The notes under the pieces were generated by a model that was not told where the DNA came from, made no database searches, and saw only the letters and a list, made by a program, of their open reading frames with translations. From Pseudomonas paralcaligenes (GTDB taxonomy: Bacteria > Pseudomonadota > Gammaproteobacteria > Pseudomonadales > Pseudomonadaceae): a stretch of 64,000 nt of DNA. This document shows positions 464-9,063 of this stretch, piece after piece; the stretch's first letter is position 1; each line of letters begins with the position of its first letter. The stretch covers positions 82,082 to 146,081 of the forward strand of contig NZ_BPFX01000009.1 in assembly GCF_019655855.1 (NCBI RefSeq), read 5' to 3'. The position numbers were made by a program, and so were the translations under genes.

Positions 464-1462
464 TTAGTCGGGTGTTTGCCAGAAAGGGTCGTTCTGCCAG
501 TCGGGCGGAAAGCCCATGGCCCGTAGGTTGGTCTCTGGAAACTCTGCCAATAACTCGTGTAGACGTCTGTCCCAGCTGGTATGCGGGCTGACCTGGCGCA
601 TCAGGAGGTTGAGGATGCACAGTACGGTGAACAGGCGGGCATGTTGTCCGGGTTGTTGCAGGTGTTGTGGCCAGGGGAAATTGACCGTCCTGGGTAGCTC
701 TGGACGGATGCCCAGCTCGCGGTTCCATAGGCGTGCGTGATGCGCGCAAATATTGCGGATGGTGGTCAGGGTGTGCAGCCAGGATTGCAGCAACGGGGCG
801 GGCAGCTTCAGGCGTTTGGCGATGGCCTTTTTGTCGGCATCGCGGGCCAGACCCTTGAACAGGTGCGAGAGATCGCCCAGGGTGATTTCTTCCATGGCCG
901 CCCAGGCTGGCATTAGCTCGGGGGTGTTGTACGTCAGGGCGTAATGACGTGCGTAGCTTTCCTTGGCGCGCATGCTCTTGAGTTGCTCTTTGCGGGTGTC
1001 AGACGCGTGGGAGGCGTCGATGCGCTGGCATTCGCGCAGATGATCCTGGAATGCCTTGTCCTGCTTGCTACGGATGCTGTCGAGCAGCGCATGGTGCCGA
1101 AAGCTGCGCTGGAAGAACTTTGGCTCCAGATACCAGTGCGAGCCATATTGCGGCCCCATGTGGTTGCTGATAACGGCTCTGGCCGCGACTTCTATGCGCT
1201 CGATGGCATCTATGACCAGCAGGCGTAGGCGGCGGTCGAAGTCATACAGGCGGGTGAGTGCCTGCAGGCGGGTGCCGGGTTTGAAGCCGTGGTCAGCATC
1301 TTCCGAAAGCTGGAATGGGCGCATGTAGGGCGTGAGGCGGAAGAAGCTGACCGCTTCCAGAAAGCAGTGCGCCTTAGCTTCGTCCTGGATGGTAAGCCCA
1401 CGCTGTTTGAGCAGGGCCAGCTGCGCAGGAATATCAATGGCTGGCTTACTGAAAGGCTTCAT
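464..1462 (-). CDS. Abi_2 (AbiD/AbiF-like) abortive-infection protein with a HEPN motif
   Basis: The 332-residue protein starts with the Abi_2 signature: KPAIDIPAQLALLKQRG, then a FLxxVSFFRLTPYMRPF segment at about residues 32-50. This matches the AbiD/AbiF family of phage-exclusion proteins. Near residue 238 it carries RNICAHH, which fits the R-x4-H HEPN ribonuclease motif, and RAVISNH at about residues 95-101 may be a second basic/His patch. The HEPN assignment implies an RNA-cleaving toxin activated during infection; this is inferred from the family. The gene lies between hsdR and hsdM on the same strand, so it is embedded in the RM locus. The upstream 274 bp holds a long hairpin. The Shine-Dalgarno before the ATG is poor. 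The C-terminal 60 residues have no motif I recognise. Confidence 0.85.
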   Translation of the reverse strand: MKPFSKPAIDIPAQLALLKQRGLTIQDEAKAHCFLEAVSFFRLTPYMRPFQLSEDADHGFKPGTRLQALTRLYDFDRRLRLLVIDAIERIEVAARAVISNHMGPQYGSHWYLEPKFFQRSFRHHALLDSIRSKQDKAFQDHLRECQRIDASHASDTRKEQLKSMRAKESYARHYALTYNTPELMPAWAAMEEITLGDLSHLFKGLARDADKKAIAKRLKLPAPLLQSWLHTLTTIRNICAHHARLWNRELGIRPELPRTVNFPWPQHLQQPGQHARLFTVLCILNLLMRQVSPHTSWDRRLHELLAEFPETNLRAMGFPPDWQNDPFWQTPD

Positions 1463-1736
1463 GCGGAAAAACTACCGGGCATAAAAAACCCGCTCAATTT
1501 GTGCGTAGCTGCCGAAGCAACCATAGGCATGGCGGGTGTGTTGCGTGAGAGGTTATGCATCACTGCATCGTTTTGCAAGGGATTTGGCACTGTAATGATG
1601 AGCGGATTGGCGTGCTTGGTTGTCTGTGGGTGAGGCTGGTTGCCCATATACAGCGAGTGACTGGCTTCGAGCGCAGGTGTCCTCTGTCCTGGGACCGAGG
1701 ACACCTGCTGTCGGGAAATCAGCAGGGAGTCAATGA
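1463..1736 (-). other. Intergenic region upstream of the Abi_2 gene; possible leader or small RNA
   Basis: This 274-bp spacer separates hsdR from the Abi_2 gene. It holds the long inverted repeat at 1,674-1,707 and a second short one (CTGCTG 1,705-1,710 with CAGCAG 1,720-1,725). A 98-codon reading frame on the reverse strand (1,459-1,755) has no recognisable features and runs into both flanking genes, so it is not called. Some AbiF-type HEPN toxins have been reported with a neighbouring non-coding RNA antitoxin; whether this spacer encodes one is inference. Confidence 0.4.
1674..1707. repeat. Long imperfect hairpin between hsdR and the Abi_2 gene
   Basis: CAGGTGTCCTC (1,674-1,684) and GAGGACACCTG (1,697-1,707) are perfect inverse copies. 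The 12-nt interval is itself nearly self-complementary (GTCC..GGAC), giving about 15 paired bases with one mismatch. It starts 30 bp after the hsdR stop. No T-run follows in the direction of transcription, so a processing or regulatory RNA role is as likely as termination. Confidence 0.75.
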
Positions 1737-4700
1737 TCATCCAACTGCCGACCACAGGTTGTCATTCAACGCTTCCAATACCCGTTCCAGGTTGCCGCCT
1801 AGGTTACGATCCAGGGCTTTGAGGCCGCCATCGTTCCGGAAGGCGTCGTTGACCTGCTGCGGATCAATGACCACCTCATGCACCAGTTGCTTGGCCAGAC
1901 GATCCAGCCATTTGCGTTGCACGGGCGTCCAGGGTTGCAGGGCGTAGATGGTCTGCATGGCCTTGGCCACACGTTGGTCGAAGGGTAGCAGGGCTTCGCC
2001 GATGGCCGCCTGGCGGATATAGCCGATGATGCTGGCGGCGATTTCCTGGTTGGTCTGATTGCGCCAGGCGCTTTTCAGGCTGGCTTCGCTGAAACCATGC
2101 TGGTCGAGCAGCAGGCGGACTTCGCGCAGTTGCTCGCGGGTTAGGTCCTTGGGGCGGTTGACCACCACGCCAAGGGCCGCTGACTGGTTGAGCTGGGTGC
2201 GAATAAAGTCGTTGAAGCTTTCCAGGTAGTCGGCCGGTTTCTGGTTTTGCCCGTAGTTCTGTTCGCGCACCAACAGTTCGTCGCTGTGGGTGGAAATAAC
2301 CGGGTAGTTCTCCGAGCCGAGCAGGGCGCTGACGGCGGCCAGTTGGTTGAGCAGCTGGCTGTGCTGGCGGACGAAGTTGGCCGCTTGTTGCGGGCCAAGG
2401 TTGTGCAGGTGTTTATGTAACTGGGCCGGCTCAACGCCCCACGCTTCTTGCAGCTCATCGAGCTTTTCCTTCAGCGTGGGTTTGTCCTCGGCCTTGTGCT
2501 GGGCCTTGCGCAGGATACGCATCACGCGCTGGCTCAGCTGGTCGAGCACGTCATGGGCGTGGCTGCTGTCGTCCTGGCTGCCAGGGGCATCATGGCTGGC
2601 TCCGCTGGTGAGTTCGCTGACCAGTTGCTCCAGGCTGATGTTGGGGTTCTTCACCAGGGGCTTCATGGTGTCGACCGCTTCCAGGCTGGCGTAGAGGTCG
2701 ACGGGGTCATAGATGCGGAATACGGTTTTGCCGATTTCGTCGCAGCGGCGCGTGGCACGGCCTTTCATCTGCTCATAGAGGATGCGCGAGCGCACCCGGC
2801 GCATAAACACCAGGTTGCAGATCTTCGGTACGTCGATGCCGGTGGTGAGCAGGTCGACGGTGATGGCGATATTGGGTGTGGGCTCGTTCTTGTAGCGGCG
2901 AATCAGCGTTTCAACCTGGTCGCTCTGGCCGGTGATGATTTCCACGGCGGCCTGGTTGTACTGCTCGCCGTAGGCTTCTTTGAAGGCTTCATCGAGTAGG
3001 TTTTTGACTCGCTCGGCATGGGCCTGGTTGACGCAGAAGATCATGGTCTTCTCTTCGCCAAACGGGTCCAGCTCCTTGGCCAGTTCATCACAGATGACCT
3101 TGTCAAAGGCCGGGGTGATCACGCGGCGGTTGAACGACTCGATGTTGAAGCTGAGTTCATCTTCCAGCTCGGCTACGTCGACTTCGCCGGTTTGGGTGTT
3201 GATAACGCTGACCGACTCGCCTTTCTCGAAGCGGATGCCGTGCTTGCTGAGCTGGGTTTCGTAGCGGATCGGTGGTTCGTGATCCACCAGCCAGTCGTCG
3301 GCGACTGCTTCGCGGTAGCTGTAGGTGAATACCGGTTTGCCGAAAATTTCGCTGGTGTGCTTGGCCGGGGTGGCGGTGAGGCCGATGCGGCAGGCGTCGA
3401 AGTGGTCGAGCACGCGGCGGTACTGCGAGAGGTACTGGCTGTGATCACGCACGGCCAGTTCGCCTTCGGTCATTTCCTGGTCGAGGGTATAACCCCGGTG
3501 GGCTTCGTCGACGATGATGCAGTCGAACTCGCCCACGGGCGGCGGGTTATCCGAGCGGAAGATGCGGCTGACCATGGCTTGCACGGTGGCGACCTGGATG
3601 CGCGTTTCTGCCTCGGCGGCCATATCGCCCAGCTCTTTGATGTCGTAGATCTGCGCCAGGGTGTGGTTCTGCTCAAGCGTGGTGTCGTTGAACGCGTCGA
3701 TGGCCTGCTGGCCGAGGGCGCTGCGGTCAACCAGAAAGAGGATGCGTTTGAAGCGTTCGGCCTTCAGAAAACGGTACATCAGGCCAATGATGGTGCGGGT
3801 TTTCCCGGTACCGGTGGCCATGGCCAGCAGGCAGTCACGCTGATTGTTGGCCAGGGCCTGCTCCACGGCCTGGATGGCTTTTTCCTGGTAGTCGCGCAGC
3901 TTGAGGTAGGCGAAGCCTTCGGCCTTGAGCTTGGTTTCGGCGTCTGCCTGGCTGCGTTTGAGCAGGTCGAGCAGGTCATTCGGGGTGTGGAAGTCAGGCA
4001 GCGGCCTGCGCGTGTTGGCCGGGCTGCGCAGGTCACGGAACCAGGTGCCGGACTGTTCGGCGAGCTGCTTGATAAAGGGCCGGCCGTTGCAGGCGAAGGC
4101 AAAGGGCACGCGGAAGTGGCCACCCTGGCCATCGTTCCAGGGTTGCGTTTGACCCGCTAGCAGCCAGGGCTGCTGATGCTCTGTCGCCAAGTTGAACTCA
4201 CGGGCATAGCGCTCGGCCTGGGGAATGCGGTCGGCGATATTGATGCGCTTACGCTTGGCTTCAACGATCGCGATTGGCGTAAGACCGGCGAACAGTACGT
4301 AGTCGGCGCAGGCTTTGGGGCTGCTGGTGGGCCACTCGGCGATGGCCTTGTTCTTGCCCCTCTCCGGACGTGCACCCTTGCCGTAGGTGAGGTCGAGGGA
4401 GTCGGCCTCCCAGCCGGCGTCGATCAACTGCTGGTCGATCAAGATGCGAGTCAGGTCTTCGGATAGGTCGAAGCTGCTGCTGGCCTGCTGAGTCAGCTTG
4501 GCGACCTGCTGGCTGGCTTGTGGCTGGGCTGCCAATTGCTGCTGCAGAGCTTTGAGGCTTTGCTCGTGCTCACTGCGCAGCTTTTGCAATGCGGCTTCGT
4601 GTTCGGCGGCTAGCTGCTTATGGCTGCGTGATTCGGCATCCATCTGCTCGGCAAGCACGGCGTATTCTTCGGCTTCCTGCTTGAGCAGGTCAGCCAACTT

Positions 4701-5213
4701 CTGGTTGCTCTCCAGTTGCTGGCTGGACTCGCTGAGCTGCGTCTTGAGCTGTTCGATCTGACTTTGCAGATCGCGCAGCGGAGCGCTGGGATCTTCGGGG
4801 GTGACGAAGGGGCCAGGTTTGAACGCATGAGCATTCTTGCCGAACGACTGGTGATACCAGATGGCCAGAGCACGGGCGACCTTCAGCCCATCCATGGCCT
4901 CACGGTGCTGGGTGCGGAACTCGTGGGTGGCCTTGTTGCCCTCGACGCGCAGGGTATGGAACAGGCTACGGATGTTCTGATCCAACTGGATCTCGCGGCT
5001 GAGCTTGTAGAGCAGGTCGGACTGCGTGGTGGTGGCATCGAACTCGATGCCGGCACGGCTGGCCAAGTCTTGAGCCAGGGCCTCGCCGAGTTGGCGTAGC
5101 TTGATCAGTGTGGTGTTGGGGTCGCTGGCGAATACCTGCTCGGCTGTGCTCGCAAGCTGCAGGAAAACCGGGTCGTGTTCCTGGAGAAAGGCGAAGTTAC
5201 TGCTGGCTGCCAT
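1737..5213 (-). CDS. hsdR: Type I restriction enzyme, HsdR (ATP-dependent translocase/endonuclease)
   Basis: The 1,158-residue protein has the HsdR architecture. An N-terminal helical DUF4145-like region (about 1-120) is followed by a Glu/Gln-rich coiled coil (about 145-240). The nuclease core reads DYVLFAGLTPIAIVEAKRKR (D...E-x-K). Next come two RecA-like helicase domains with Walker A MATGTGKT, DEAHRG, GLTATP and a motif VI region with GRATRR, then a helical C-terminal domain. It cleaves DNA after ATP-driven translocation when complexed with HsdM and HsdS. I chose the ATG at 5,213 (MAASSNF) because it has an AAGGA 7 nt upstream; the frame stays open to 5,342 but that extension has no homology-like character. 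The length is at the upper end for the family. Confidence 0.95.
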   Translation of the reverse strand: MAASSNFAFLQEHDPVFLQLASTAEQVFASDPNTTLIKLRQLGEALAQDLASRAGIEFDATTTQSDLLYKLSREIQLDQNIRSLFHTLRVEGNKATHEFRTQHREAMDGLKVARALAIWYHQSFGKNAHAFKPGPFVTPEDPSAPLRDLQSQIEQLKTQLSESSQQLESNQKLADLLKQEAEEYAVLAEQMDAESRSHKQLAAEHEAALQKLRSEHEQSLKALQQQLAAQPQASQQVAKLTQQASSSFDLSEDLTRILIDQQLIDAGWEADSLDLTYGKGARPERGKNKAIAEWPTSSPKACADYVLFAGLTPIAIVEAKRKRINIADRIPQAERYAREFNLATEHQQPWLLAGQTQPWNDGQGGHFRVPFAFACNGRPFIKQLAEQSGTWFRDLRSPANTRRPLPDFHTPNDLLDLLKRSQADAETKLKAEGFAYLKLRDYQEKAIQAVEQALANNQRDCLLAMATGTGKTRTIIGLMYRFLKAERFKRILFLVDRSALGQQAIDAFNDTTLEQNHTLAQIYDIKELGDMAAEAETRIQVATVQAMVSRIFRSDNPPPVGEFDCIIVDEAHRGYTLDQEMTEGELAVRDHSQYLSQYRRVLDHFDACRIGLTATPAKHTSEIFGKPVFTYSYREAVADDWLVDHEPPIRYETQLSKHGIRFEKGESVSVINTQTGEVDVAELEDELSFNIESFNRRVITPAFDKVICDELAKELDPFGEEKTMIFCVNQAHAERVKNLLDEAFKEAYGEQYNQAAVEIITGQSDQVETLIRRYKNEPTPNIAITVDLLTTGIDVPKICNLVFMRRVRSRILYEQMKGRATRRCDEIGKTVFRIYDPVDLYASLEAVDTMKPLVKNPNISLEQLVSELTSGASHDAPGSQDDSSHAHDVLDQLSQRVMRILRKAQHKAEDKPTLKEKLDELQEAWGVEPAQLHKHLHNLGPQQAANFVRQHSQLLNQLAAVSALLGSENYPVISTHSDELLVREQNYGQNQKPADYLESFNDFIRTQLNQSAALGVVVNRPKDLTREQLREVRLLLDQHGFSEASLKSAWRNQTNQEIAASIIGYIRQAAIGEALLPFDQRVAKAMQTIYALQPWTPVQRKWLDRLAKQLVHEVVIDPQQVNDAFRNDGGLKALDRNLGGNLERVLEALNDNLWSAVG

Positions 5214-5374
5214 GGTCGATCCTTCGGTTGCGTTCCACTCATTACGCCAAACGGGCTCTATTACGCGTAAGTGGCAGCAGCTTAACGAAGGTGAGCCGAG
5301 TTTGGCCATGGCATGGGCCACTGAGTGTTCAGCTTTGACCATGCGCCAGGGCTAAGGGCTTTCTCAGCCGTGCT

Positions 5375-5713
5375 TCACTTTGCGCTCCAAACCTCATAGC
5401 CCTGGCGTGCTATTTCTTTCTGCGCTAGGTCGTTTCTAGCGCCGCCCAGTTGTCGCAAGGTCAGCAACATTTCCAGCAGTACGCCATCCATGCCTTGCAG
5501 GCCGTTACTGCCTTGGGGCTCTCCAGGTGCCAGATCTGTCATCCGCTCGACTGCTCGCCTGAGCATCTGCAACTCATCCATGACGGCATCTTCGCGTTCC
5601 AGCCGGTTGCGTAGGTAGGTGCTCAGCGGTAGCTCTGCTGCCATCGCCTGGGCCTCGTACAGCTCTCGTTTTTCCACCGTCAGGCGGAGTGGTATTGCGT
5701 CCGCTAGTCTCAT
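5375..5713 (-). CDS. Small ribbon-helix-helix protein, MobC/NikA-like
   Basis: The 112-residue product begins MRLADAIPLRLTVEKRELYE and continues with LPLSTYLRNRLERED. This pattern (beta strand, two helices, Leu/Ser-x-x-hydrophobic-Arg-Arg) is typical of RHH DNA-binding proteins that accompany relaxases or act as island regulators. The rest is a helical, Leu/Arg-rich tail. The ATG at 5,713 has a GGAG 5-8 nt upstream and is preferred over an in-frame start at 5,818, which would add an unconvincing Cys-rich leader. It sits between hsdR and the repeat-rich putative origin, which would be a natural target. Without a relaxase in view a mobilisation role is only inferred. Confidence 0.6.
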   Translation of the reverse strand: MRLADAIPLRLTVEKRELYEAQAMAAELPLSTYLRNRLEREDAVMDELQMLRRAVERMTDLAPGEPQGSNGLQGMDGVLLEMLLTLRQLGGARNDLAQKEIARQGYEVWSAK

Positions 5714-5998
5714 GTCTCTCCGTAGTCGCCTCCGTATACAGCTATATCCCTTTAGAATAGGGTTTCCAGCTTGGTGTGTAGTCGTCTCGCAATACAAAAA
5801 AAACAATAGATTTTCCAAAAAACCTTTTTAAATCAATATGTTGCGCGCGCCTGCAAGGTGCGTATGGTGTATAGCAAAAAAGCTGTGTTTTAAGGGTGGC
5901 CACGATCCCTAGAACACCTCGATTTTTAAGGGGAATTGCTACCAAGAGGGTCTGTTTAATCCCCAACGGCTTGTCCGTTGGCCGAGGTAGCTCAAAAG

Positions 5999-6059
5999 TA
6001 GCAATCGGGTAGCAGTTGAATAGCAGCTCAGTAGCAGTTCGGTAGCAACAAAGAAGCAG
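5999..6059. repeat. Array A: six 11-bp repeats centred on TAGCA
   Basis: TAGC occurs at 5,999, 6,010, 6,021, 6,032 and 6,043, with a variant AAGC at 6,054, so the step is exactly 11 bp each time. The flanks are partly conserved (consensus about GGTAGCAGTTN). Equal spacing of one helical turn places all copies on the same DNA face. Confidence 0.8.
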
Positions 6060-6100
6060 GTCACGCTTTTGTTAGGCAGGGATGATGCGAAAATCATCCA

Positions 6101-6144
6101 GATATGATGCAGATATGATGCAGATATGATGCAGATATGATGCA
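6101..6144. repeat. Array B: four perfect tandem copies of GATATGATGCA
   Basis: Identical 11-bp units start at 6,101, 6,112, 6,123 and 6,134. Degenerate relatives flank the block (GATGATGC near 6,081 and TTGATGCAAATC near 6,168). Perfect identity suggests recent expansion or strong selection as a protein-binding array. Confidence 0.95.
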
Positions 6145-6205
6145 GGTTGGGCATAAATCATTCAATTTTGATGCAAATCACTCCGGTCAGAGAGGAATAC
6201 ACTCT

Positions 6206-6322
6206 GAAGACAGAAAGAAGACAGTTAGAGAACAAAAAAGATACAGCTAGAGAACACTTAGAAGACAGAAAAGCAACAGTAGGCAACTGAAAGACAACTG
6301 GGAGACAACAAGAAAGCAACAG
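6206..6322. repeat. Array C: A-rich degenerate repeats of about 11 bp
   Basis: About eleven units resembling GAAGACAGAAA follow one another (for example at 6,206, 6,217 and again near 6,261), drifting to GCAACAG/GACAACTG types at the 3' end. The strand is strikingly purine/A-rich. The period stays near 11 bp with a single-base slip near 6,281. This could be a DNA-unwinding element or a lower-affinity extension of the initiator sites. Confidence 0.7.
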
Positions 6323-6347: not shown

Positions 6348-7181
6348 CTACCTCCTGCCGCTAACTACCATCGCCTTAAGCTGGCTTCTTGCGAGCGTGG
6401 CTGCTGTTTTTGCTCCTTGGGTAGTCGGGACAAAGTCGCCGCTACGATGGCGCTGTAGGAGCCCATGAAAATACTGAATGGGCGACTGAGTTATGTGCCC
6501 AGGACGCGCCATCGCTTTGGACAGCTCGGCCAGTAGAAATCGTGCTTCCTGATCCGGTGTGTTGCGTAGCAAAACGCTAATTTGCTCCCGCTCGCCTGTG
6601 GATAACTGCCCAAGTGGCTCGGGCTCCGGTGTAGTAGGGTTAGAGTTATAGTTACTGTTAGTGTTAACCCGCCCCCTATCGATAGGGTATGGATAGGGTA
6701 TCGATACCCTATCTGTGGAGCCTTCATCGACTGCCGATGAAGGGCTAAAAGCGTTGGAGACGAGCTCTCGGAGCTCGCCGTTGTCGGGGAGCCGTTGGAT
6801 CAGGTCATCGGTGTAAAGCGTGCGCCATTGCTCGGGTAGCTCCCGAATCTGGTTGAAGGTCTTTTGCCTAAGCGTGGGCCCTAGCGCCATGCGCGGGGAG
6901 TTGTGATCCCAACAGATGTGAACCCACACGTAGCTCTGCTCTGGCTCGTATTCGATGAAGCCTGCATCTTGTAGTCGGCGCAAAATCGGCATGAACTGGG
7001 ATTCGGTATCCCAGCCCATCTCAGACGCAGCAATGCGCGGAACAATCTGGTAAGCGCCAATGATGTTGCTGAAGGGGCAGGTCAGCAGATAGGTGAGCGT
7101 CGACCGGTCTTCCTGAGTCCTGCCAGCCATTTTGGGCGACCGCCAGAATGCAGAGTCATTGATTGTGCGTTGCCTGCTCAT
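6348..7181 (-). CDS. Putative replication initiation protein (winged-helix type)
   Basis: The 277-residue protein opens with MSRQRTINDSAFWRSPKM and contains a predicted winged-helix block: YQIVPRIAASEMGWDTESQF, then LRRLQDAGFIEYE. This resembles the N-terminal DNA-binding domain of phage and island replication proteins (replisome-organiser/DnaD-like). A low-complexity Asn/Pro/Thr linker at about 175-190 separates it from a helical C-terminal part. The ATG overlaps the stop of the upstream HTH gene (ATGA), so the two are translationally coupled. Repeat arrays of origin type begin right after its stop. No catalytic motif (primase, helicase) is visible. Function is inferred from the fold pattern and context; it could instead be a regulatory protein. 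Confidence 0.5.
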   Translation of the reverse strand: MSRQRTINDSAFWRSPKMAGRTQEDRSTLTYLLTCPFSNIIGAYQIVPRIAASEMGWDTESQFMPILRRLQDAGFIEYEPEQSYVWVHICWDHNSPRMALGPTLRQKTFNQIRELPEQWRTLYTDDLIQRLPDNGELRELVSNAFSPSSAVDEGSTDRVSIPYPYPIDRGRVNTNSNYNSNPTTPEPEPLGQLSTGEREQISVLLRNTPDQEARFLLAELSKAMARPGHITQSPIQYFHGLLQRHRSGDFVPTTQGAKTAATLARSQLKAMVVSGRR

Positions 7182-7402
7182 GCGCTGGCCTCATCAATCA
7201 ACCGCGCAATGCCTTGAGTTTTGAAGTAAACACGGCGACCGATTTTAAGCCGGGTATCCCGCAGTTTTTGGGCGAGCTCAGAGTTGCCAGACAGAGTTAT
7301 GCGTAATCCATCTTTGCTTCGATGAAGAATATCTGCGACTTGTTCAATTGAAAGTAGAGGTGAGCCTTGAAATTTATCAAGTAGTAGTTGTTCAGTGCTC
7401 AA
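7178..7402 (-). CDS. Small HTH (excisionase/AlpA-like) DNA-binding protein
   Basis: The 74-residue product contains LLSIEQVADILHRSKDGLRI in the middle and ends with RLKIGRRVYFKTQGIARLID, the helix-turn-helix plus wing pattern of MerR/excisionase-type proteins common in islands. Translation starts at a TTG with AGGAG 8 nt upstream. The gene overlaps the putative rep start by 4 bp. An imperfect palindrome at 7,442-7,465 just upstream is a candidate operator. By context it could be an excisionase or a regulator of rep; the sequence does not decide. Confidence 0.6.
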   Translation of the reverse strand: MSTEQLLLDKFQGSPLLSIEQVADILHRSKDGLRITLSGNSELAQKLRDTRLKIGRRVYFKTQGIARLIDEASA

Positions 7403-7788: not shown

Positions 7789-8859
7789 CTACGGTTTGGT
7801 TTGCTCAGCCATTCTGTCCAGCTTGCCTACAAGGTCTTCGGCCCGTAGGTGTGTGTAGCGCTTCAGCATCTGCATCGACTTGTGGCCGCTGATGGCGGAA
7901 ACCTCCTGGTCGGATAGGCCGCCCTCGACCAGCCGGCTGACTGCTTCATGGCGCAGATCATGGAAGCGCAGGTCAGGCATGCCGAGTTTCTTCTTCAGTA
8001 GCCCCCAGGTCTTGGTGAAGGCATAGGGGCGGCGTTTATCGTCCTTTCCCGGTTCTCCAAAGAACACCAGGTTGCAGTCCTTGGGGCGAGCGGGGTTCTC
8101 CAGGGCTGCCTTGAAAGTCTCAGTGGCCAGCTTGGTGAGGGGTACGGTTCGTGCGCTGTCGTTCTTGGTGTCAGCAAGGCGCACCACACGTTTTTTCAGG
8201 TCGACCTGTTGGCAGCGTAGCCCGGTAATCTCTGACGAGCGCATGCCGGTCTCCAGGGCGATGCGGACGATCCAGCCCAGCATGGGGTTGCTGTGGTTGT
8301 TCACTGCGGCGAGCAGGTGTCTTTCCTCTTCGGCGCTTAGTCTGCGGTCGCGCCCATCACCAGGGCTTGGTTTGCGGATATTCAATACTGGATTGAAGGT
8401 GAGCCCCAGGCCCCACTCCTGAATCGCCACGGTGAATAAGTGGCTAAGCAGGGCAAGCTCCAGGCGCACGGTGTTGTTGCTGGTAGGGGCGCCGCGCTTG
8501 CTCAGGGTGCCTAGGCGGGTGTCGCGGTAGTTGGCGATGATCTCGGCGGAGAGGGCGGCCAGGGAGTATTTGCCCAGATGCTGGATCAGCTGCTTGGCTT
8601 TGGTGGCTTCAGCCTTGCGCGTGGTGGGTTTCTTGCTGGGCGTCACCTCGGCCAGATAGCGTTCAAGGGCCTTCTCCAGAGTCATGCGCTCGGAGCCGCT
8701 GCGCTGGATGTACACGCCCCTGACCATTTCATCTTCGGTGCGGCGCGCCCAGTCTTCGGCATCACGTTTGGTTCGGAAGGTTTTAGTGTTGGTCGGCCAG
8801 CCAGTTTTGCGCACCAAGGCTTTCCAGGTGCCGGCTTCGGTTTTGACAATCGTGGCCAT
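7789..8859 (-). CDS. int: Tyrosine recombinase integrase of the island
   Basis: The 356-residue protein has an N-terminal arm-binding/SAM-like region (about 55-160) and a C-terminal catalytic domain. Catalytic residues are visible: Arg in ALETGMRSSEI, HDLRHEAVSRL (H-x-x-R), GHKSMQM (second His) and the nucleophile Tyr in LKRYTHL. It catalyses integration and excision, here at the adjacent tRNA gene. The ATG at 8,859 has GGAG 9 nt upstream; a TTG at 8,874 is less likely. The gene faces away from the tRNA, with its start about 125 bp from the tRNA 3' end. It appears intact. Confidence 0.95.
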   Translation of the reverse strand: MATIVKTEAGTWKALVRKTGWPTNTKTFRTKRDAEDWARRTEDEMVRGVYIQRSGSERMTLEKALERYLAEVTPSKKPTTRKAEATKAKQLIQHLGKYSLAALSAEIIANYRDTRLGTLSKRGAPTSNNTVRLELALLSHLFTVAIQEWGLGLTFNPVLNIRKPSPGDGRDRRLSAEEERHLLAAVNNHSNPMLGWIVRIALETGMRSSEITGLRCQQVDLKKRVVRLADTKNDSARTVPLTKLATETFKAALENPARPKDCNLVFFGEPGKDDKRRPYAFTKTWGLLKKKLGMPDLRFHDLRHEAVSRLVEGGLSDQEVSAISGHKSMQMLKRYTHLRAEDLVGKLDRMAEQTKP

Positions 8860-8955
8860 GTTTTTGAGCTCCAAAGGCGTGCGGCTGTACCGGCACTGTA
8901 CCGAATTTGTACCTTTGGACTATAGGACTGTTTCGCAGCGTTGCGCTGCAGAAAG

Positions 8956-8986: not shown

Positions 8987-9063
8987 TGGTGGGCCCACAC
9001 GGACTCGAACCGTGGACCAAAGGATTATGAGTCCTCTGCTCTAACCGACTGAGCTATAGGCCC
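8987..9063 (-). tRNA. tRNA with CAU anticodon (elongator Met or Ile2)
   Basis: The reverse strand folds as a cloverleaf. The acceptor is GGGCCTA with TGGGCCC, the D-arm contains AGCTCAGTCGGTTAGAGC, the anticodon loop is CTCATAA, the T-arm contains GGTTCGAGTCC, and CCA is encoded. The TTGGTC variable region resembles bacterial tRNA-Ile2, whose CAU is modified to lysidine-AU, more than elongator Met, but the sequence alone does not settle this. It is the integration target of the island. It starts only 17 bp after the rmcA stop, so its promoter must lie in the end of that gene or be shared. Confidence 0.95.

Follow-up and report, generated by a model that had tools for sequence, protein, structure and literature searches.

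What do three unlike arrays of 11-bp repeats do side by side in a chromosomal island? The question arises from a stretch of 64,000 nucleotides of Pseudomonas paralcaligenes (G000:C9:82082-146081, hereafter the window, by which the whole stretch analysed is meant), which holds one end of an integrative island at tRNA-Met. The initial annotation took the arrays, which directly follow a putative replication protein gene in the island, for parts of a compound replication origin. We arrive at a different reading, to which we assign a probability of about 0.7 on the grounds of sequence comparison: the region would be the oriT of a relaxase-less IME that depends on plasmids of the R388/pMBUI4 kind (MOBF, TrwC), and the arrays would be StbA sites.

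The integrative nature of the element, which had been proposed from the window sequence, is borne out by the Pfam match of its integrase and by a pair of 46-bp repeats, 98% identical, which bounds the 18.3-kb island at tRNA-Met (Table 1). The probable oriT described below is not accompanied by a complete transfer system, TrwB and TrwC being unmatched, and a Pfam scan of 12 island ORFs gave no relaxase. Further left in the island (L009), the defence cargo is joined by genes for HsdM and HsdS, for a NERD protein and for a STAND-like protein of 1262 aa, whose STAND/AAA and Cap4-nuclease matches are weak and lie below curated cut-offs. Neither Pfam nor PADLOC matches a further protein of the left arm, of 432 aa; this and the 1262-aa protein (L009 1597-6784) are possible unlisted defence genes. 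Near relatives of the island occur in two other species, P. oleovorans (L017) and P. xionganensis (L018), and the L018 island adjoins the same chromosomal rpoD/GGDEF genes as that of the window.

Table 1 Features of the island and of related elements. Positions refer to the window unless a contig or locus is named.
Feature	Position	Strand	Remarks
Defence cargo	464-5342	-	AbiD/Abi_2 464-1462; HsdR 1737-5342
trwA homologue	5375-5713	-	112 aa; ribbon-helix-helix type relaxosome accessory protein
Two imperfect 19-nt direct repeats upstream of trwA	5722-5740, 5778-5796		79% identity; two copies
nic-like site GGTGCGTATGGTGT/ATAGC	5857-5875	+	Imperfect inverted repeat just ahead of site
GACCCTC box and GC-rich inverted repeat	5946-5982		Between nic and array A
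Array A	5982-6058 (about)	-	TGCTAYYNNNN, seven units; candidate pMBUI4-type stbDR
Array B	6068-6178 (about)	-	TGCATCATATC, four perfect units (6099-6145) and degenerate units on both sides; candidate R388-type stbDR
Array C	6190-6321 (about)	-	TGTYNTCTNNN, about 12 units; possible third stbDR type
rep-like gene, 277 aa	6348-7181	-	PHROG 1701, E 5e-13; N-terminal DnaD-like helicase-loader match
Iterons TACCCTAT inside rep	6677-6713	both orientations	11-12-bp spacing; candidate replication origin
74-aa HTH protein, between int and rep	7178-7402	-	Pfam HTH_17, E 9e-4, below curated cut-off
Tyrosine integrase (int)	7789-8874	-	Pfam Phage_integrase, E 7e-31
tRNA-Met	8987-9063	-	Repeat copy 1 at 8987-9032
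Repeat copy 2	G000:C9:72757-72802		18.3 kb from copy 1; 98% identity over 46 bp
Second-family loci	L075 7748-12993 and about 16000; L130 5847-11600		
T4SS-type genes in satellites	L121 1116-1952, 2687-3772; L019 8972-9637, 10033-10881; L128 5075-7046		

The three arrays are present where they had been annotated and are non-random. Read on the minus strand, which is the strand of rep and trwA, nearly every unit of A, B and C begins with TG, and the best period of each array is a lag of 11 or 22. Six-unit column scores are 52 for A, 60 for B and 51 for C, against maxima of 44, 46 and 48 in local first-order Markov sequences (2000 each; P = 0.0005 each, the floor of a test whose segments were picked because of the arrays), and mononucleotide shuffles of the whole window (n = 3) reach a maximum of 44. 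Column permutation agrees with the annotation that three distinct unit types share one step (pairwise p 0.35 to 0.62). The count of four perfect copies in B stands, A has seven units rather than the six first counted, C has about 12 rather than about eleven, and the spacing is not perfect as had been stated, since C contains one 10-bp step near 6278-6288 and the junction from B to A is a 9-bp step. Both the 11-bp lattice and the orientation of the units are kept in the window island, L017 and L018. In the two relatives, 22 bp of C and 42 bp of the B region are missing compared with the window, and array B is largely degenerate, with exact TGCATCAT only twice, 22 bp apart. The fourfold perfect B is thus specific to the window copy, and its absence (6099-6145 of the window) from two close relatives implies that the copy number of the sites changes quickly.

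Along the region, trwA is followed by nic, then by the GACCCTC box and the inverted repeat, and then by arrays A, B and C and rep. The TrwA gene, nic-like site and GACCCTC/inverted-repeat block have a matching order in pMBUI4 and pPL2, and nic, TrwA and array are placed likewise in R388. The island TrwA is 86.5% identical to pMBUI4 TrwA, 72.3% to that of pPL2, 70.5% to that of pAd12 and 37% to the R388 homologue, and has a Pfam NikA-like match below the curated cut-off; the 19-nt repeats upstream of its gene are possible TrwA sites. The nic-like sequence GGTGCGTATGGTGTATAGC differs from the R388 nic region by three mismatches over 20 bases, and we take the cleavage point within it to be the one that analogy with R388 suggests. 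The GGTGCGTAT-GT-TAT nic of R388/TrwC-type (MOBF) oriTs is found here with no mismatch, as a single site in 64 kb, and a trwA-type gene lies on its proximal side. Likewise, the window contains only one match to the nic pattern GGTGCGTATNGTNTATMGC, with no mismatch, where 0.12 would be expected at up to three mismatches; this pattern was written from the window site together with plasmid sites, and it is present in four of the 398 sampled Pseudomonas genomes, the source genome included. The arrangement of GACCCTC box and inverted repeat is common to pMBUI4, pPL2 and pPA1609-475, and the block is nearly invariant among the window, L017 and L018. An origin-like region is indeed found at this place, and its sequence indicates that the arrays are probably the outer part of an R388/TrwC-type oriT, not a replication origin. 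By analogy with R388, we infer that the arrays, rep and int would sit in the leading region; the available text of PMC3098194 describes the R388 stb genes as the first into the recipient. Two matches to the nic pattern in viral contigs (L122 and L123; two of two) lie in phage coding genes, with no arrays in the sequence examined, and we regarded them as chance matches.

In R388, two groups of five 9-bp repeats, TTGCATCAT, with 2-bp spacers lie between nic and stbA; these stbDRs are bound by StbA, for which roles in stability and transfer have been published (PMC3098194, available text). The N-terminal part of R388 StbA is represented by PDB structure 7pc1. When gaps upstream of stbA or StbA-like genes were read in 16 plasmids against a local first-order null, 13 proved to contain an 11-bp array at the floor of the test, P 0.0033; the weaker gaps are those of pAd12 (P 0.02), pHPA0118-2 (0.037) and X. 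translucens (0.11). By reading, the unit varies between StbA lineages, being TGCATCAT in R388, pHH2-227 and the stbA-less BPP5P1, TGCTAYCT in pMBUI4, pPL2 and pAd12, and TGCACCCT in NAH7, pDTG1, CIP-10 and pYKBT042, with further unit types elsewhere. Pseudomonas chromosomes and contigs are less uniform: upstream of 26 StbB loci, ten score 39-55 and 16 score 32-38, of 55, figures for which no null was computed. Arrays are thus not a universal feature of such gaps, which counts against our reading. A plasmid of Cupriavidus gilardii (L088 1396-1973) carries GTTAG units at an 11-bp step upstream of an StbA-like gene beside trbB, showing that the array habit extends past TG-start units.

The island arrays occupy the position held by stbDRs in plasmids and share their format, a 9-bp repeat and a 2-bp spacer (11-bp step) beside nic. 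Position weight matrices (PWMs) were compared by 1000 column permutations with 21 comparisons per query. Array A matches pMBUI4 (p 0.001) and pPL2 (p 0.002), and array B matches R388, BPP5P1 and the B array of pPA1609 (each p 0.001); A, B and C are mutually unlike in this comparison, and TGCATCAT of R388 occurs exactly four times in B. Both A and B thus have the unit of a known StbA lineage (p 0.001-0.002), and their sequences point to candidate StbA-binding arrays of two plasmid lineages. A lattice scan at a threshold of 46 (shuffle maximum 44) missed pAd12, X. translucens, pHPA0118-2, BPP5P1 and the B. singularis island; against local nulls, the arrays of BPP5P1, the B. singularis island, G051 and G428 exceed chance (P 0.0033 each, the floor). 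Repeats of 11 bp also occur in ParR/R1-type centromeres. We dropped this candidate, having noticed no ORFs that resemble a parM/parR pair and in view of the specificity of the stbDR match.

As judged from its sequence matches, array C has about an even chance of being an stbDR. Its best PWM matches, weaker than those of A and B, are to the G051 island (p 0.002), CIP-10 (0.003) and NAH7 (0.012), and further matches are to the Burkholderia singularis island (0.018) and the StbB locus of G428 (0.045); after simple correction for the 21 comparisons, only the G051 match survives. The G051 array sits between int and an HTH gene, in an island whose integrase is 82% identical to that of the window and in which no nic, oriT or StbA was found within 12 kb. 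Support for C as a third stbDR type comes from the B. singularis island, since it has a NAH7-like nic, a related integrase (68% identical to that of the window) and, beside the array, an StbA homologue (E 8e-13 to pMBUI4 StbA; E 2.5e-25 with NAH7 StbA as query) that has no Pfam match. Across the 398 Pseudomonas genomes, a C-type triplet pattern matched only in the window island and in G051; the reversed-pattern control matched in five genomes, so that single C-triplet matches mean nothing alone. A role of C as arm sites for the integrase was also considered.

The gene next to the arrays is of a replication type, as had been annotated. Its product also matches the NCBIfam STY4528 replication protein at E 0.013, far below the cut-off, and has 98 relatives at E <= 0.001 (two of them nearly identical to the query), with 47 genome loci; tblastn at E 1e-5 gave no match in 72,556 plasmid records and none in phages. 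A predicted fold of the 277-aa protein (mean pLDDT 72.7) retrieved nothing from the PDB at E <= 0.001 with Foldseek and was set aside.

A vegetative origin in which the arrays serve as iterons for the 277-aa Rep, the 74-aa HTH protein or both would fit the start of array C 26 bases past the rep stop codon and the layout of SGI1, in which rep is directly followed by an iteron oriV and, as here, has an HTH_17 gene ahead of it (PMC7433901, available text); a C-like array also adjoins the HTH gene of the G051 island. Our data do not, however, lend support to this assignment. Among 52 rep loci fetched, 48 have measurable downstream DNA (two of them just 175 and 272 bases, and several being near-duplicates), and A-, B- or C-type arrays follow rep in two of these, L017 and L018, both near relatives; the remaining 46 keep rep and lack the arrays, which is what the initial annotation had named as evidence against its own proposal. 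Moreover, plasmids without this rep carry A- and B-type arrays, and the repeats that do track rep are inside the gene. The arrays therefore go with oriT, trwA and stbA, since A and B types adjoin plasmid oriTs and rep has no plasmid match, and we regard a vegetative origin at the arrays as very unlikely.

The iteron cluster inside rep is the better candidate for the replication origin, because TACCCTAT exceeds the expectation from synonymous shuffling across homologues: with one mismatch allowed, 85 sites are found in 32 non-redundant rep homologues against 25.1 (maximum 36 in 200 shuffles), for a word that was taken from these same rep genes, and the repeats thus appear to be conserved beyond codon needs. 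At least one such site is present in 31 of the 32 homologues, 13 of which are individually at P <= 0.05; for the window rep gene alone the excess has P = 0.15. An origin within the initiator gene is known from phage lambda O. The iterons encode a conserved VSIPYPYP peptide, and the constraint at the DNA level is seen in beta- and gammaproteobacterial homologues.

On the far side of the arrays, rep occupies the place of stbA, and in the island tblastn gave no match to StbA, StbB, StbC, TrwB or TrwC (E 0.01; six StbA queries), for which reason the arrays are termed stbDR-like and not a complete stb locus. These queries likewise went unmatched in L017 and L018 (16.8-kb stretches), in pPA1609 (a 16-kb stretch) and in the stretches of G104 and G228; the whole of BPP5P1 gave a TrwA match and a 27-residue TrwB match (E 0.002), the latter read as chance. 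The lack of stbA goes along with stacking, defined as A and B both having at least three sites within one mismatch: with stbA labels assigned by us from annotations and searches, A and B are stacked in five of seven stbA-less elements (the window, L017, L018, pPA1609-475 and G104; the others are G228 and BPP5P1) and in none of 18 stbA-bearing ones, two of which, G058 and G441, mix other array types to a weaker degree. This tabulation leaves out pAd12, whose record starts inside the region, and pHPA0118-2, pB1122 and C. gilardii (no nic match), and the StbB loci in it are G332, G428, G441, G423 and G058 only.

The five elements with both arrays represent two element families, and in the second (P. 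aeruginosa pPA1609-475 and G104) B and then A lie ahead of the same kind of nic. The oriTs of pPA1609 and G104 are 87% identical over 338 bp, and those of pPA1609 and the window about 70% over 159 bp and 115 bp (A-to-nic, and B). Since the oriTs of the two families align, the stack may have arisen once, and its distribution is accordingly a pattern and not a statistic. The G228 element, a sibling of the pPA1609 element (integrase 95% and primase 92% identical), keeps nic and has a TGTCTGNAG array in place of B and A, which suggests that the arrays are exchangeable and swapped as modules. Members of the second family (HTH, CHC2 primase, tyrosine integrase) lie near large TpsA/CdiA-like genes, and the B-type array is found twice in the pPA1609-475 stretch.

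Because the island has TrwA, and no StbA, StbB, TrwB or TrwC was found in it, a helper plasmid would supply StbA and StbB, the relaxase, the coupling protein and the secretion channel. Once the island is excised, and possibly multiplied through the iterons in the rep gene, the StbA of the helper would land on whichever array fits on the excised circle. The circle would then be handled like the helper plasmid, with StbA keeping it positioned, StbB bringing it to the membrane, and the helper TrwC nicking at nic together with the island's own TrwA. With several array types, the range of usable helper lineages would be wider. The sequence itself shows the island, the nic-like site, TrwA, the types and positions of the arrays and the lack of a detectable stbA, trwB or trwC; binding of StbA at this site, excision, mobilization and a benefit of stacking are what we infer for the island. 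Tentatively, and at somewhat less than even odds, the proposal may be extended to a landing pad for multiple helpers, in which two or three StbA specificities beside a TrwC-type oriT, with no StbA of its own, would let the element be held and delivered by the segregation proteins of different plasmid lineages, the array type being a readable and exchangeable helper address. StbA represses transfer in R388 (PMC3098194, available text), and a borrowed StbA could for this reason also hinder the island. The source genome itself contains a resident TrwC-type relaxase and StbB (L120 3131-9604), with a gene in StbA-like position that has no Pfam match. The array of this MOBF/StbB system, TGGTTTNNNN, is weak (score 45) and differs from the island types; no matching helper is therefore known in the host, and the resident StbA/StbB (StbB by search, StbA by position) was rejected as a helper.

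The same features could be read in other ways. About 25 sites, possibly multiplied by a replicon, might titrate the StbA of a helper and so raise the helper transfer on which the island rides, in line with the roughly 50-fold rise of R388 transfer on deletion of stbA; yet, according to the same source (PMC3098194, available text), transfer is unchanged when the whole stb operon is deleted, so that the effect depends on StbB, and a single chromosomal copy of the island would titrate little. We consider such a role of the arrays unlikely. A somewhat better case, although still on the unlikely side, can be made for oriT and array A having been captured from a pMBUI4-like plasmid, with B and C as drifting, locally duplicated leftovers that have no present role. 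B ranges from four perfect to two exact copies among close relatives of the island, short tandem duplication explains exact copies, and the A and B stack may have a single origin; against this stand the 11-bp lattice and orientation, which persist in all three islands, and the second family, in which A and B are still recognisable beside an integrase 21% identical and an oriT about 30% diverged.

Nearly all units being TG-first, on the same strand and at an almost constant 11-bp step, one StbA of broad specificity, or one island protein, might recognise A, B and C alike by their common TG start and helical phase. Such a reader, however, would leave the absence of A and B stacking from all 18 stbA-bearing elements (with the weaker mixing in G058 and G441) and the differences among A, B and C beyond TG to be explained, and no stbA was found in the island; it is improbable. 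The oriT of a helper-dependent IME, with StbA sites in its outer part, thus remains our preferred reading.

Comparison with known systems places the island closest to plasmid oriTs on one side and to satellites on the other. With IncW R388 (MOBF, TrwABC, StbABC) it shares a nic-like sequence, an adjacent TrwA homologue (37%) and 11-bp TGCATCAT arrays between nic and the next gene, but unlike R388 it has no detected stbABC, trwB or trwC, carries two further array types and has rep in place of stbA. Its array A unit and position, nic region, inverted repeat and TrwA (70-86%) resemble those of pMBUI4 from an uncultured bacterium and of Pseudomonas pPL2 and pAd12; these plasmids, in contrast, have stbA, and pMBUI4 and pPL2, in which arrays were counted, have only the A-type array. 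SGI1-type islands are likewise integrated, with int, rep, an HTH_17 gene before rep and no full transfer system (PMC7433901, available text), and their oriT is served by a helper plasmid, as proposed here (PMC7433901 and PMC6414798, available texts). SGI1 differs in its integration site, its IncA/IncC helper and its oriV downstream of rep, and the term StbA does not occur in the available text of PMC7433901. The IME-like element of pPA1609-475 has B then A, the inverted repeat, the GACCCTC box and the same kind of nic (oriT about 70%), and also lacks an StbA match in its 16-kb stretch; it differs in having an integrase 21% identical, no TrwA match in the stretch, no array C and another replication gene. 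Among the matches listed from the open-access literature, judged by titles and opening lines of abstracts, nothing concerned StbA sites in mobilizable islands, subscription journals not being covered.

From sequence it is difficult to say which helper plasmid carries a given relaxase-less island. If the type of stbDR were a second lineage-specific address beside nic, the helper range would become more readable, and stacking would show how an element could keep several helpers open. The findings suggest that the StbA system, which in R388 balances stability and transfer (PMC3098194, available text), would be exploited by satellites, the cargo carried in such exploitation being, in this case, defence genes. 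Parts of a secretion channel are encoded in other elements of this kind: the G051 and B. singularis islands, which are related, encode TrbL/VirB6 proteins and proteins of the VirB5 type (Pfam T4SS). In BPP5P1, a small plasmid, annotated VirB5, EexN and T4SS genes lie beside TrwA, and there is no TrwC-type relaxase match. These satellites may replace parts of the secretion channel of the helper.
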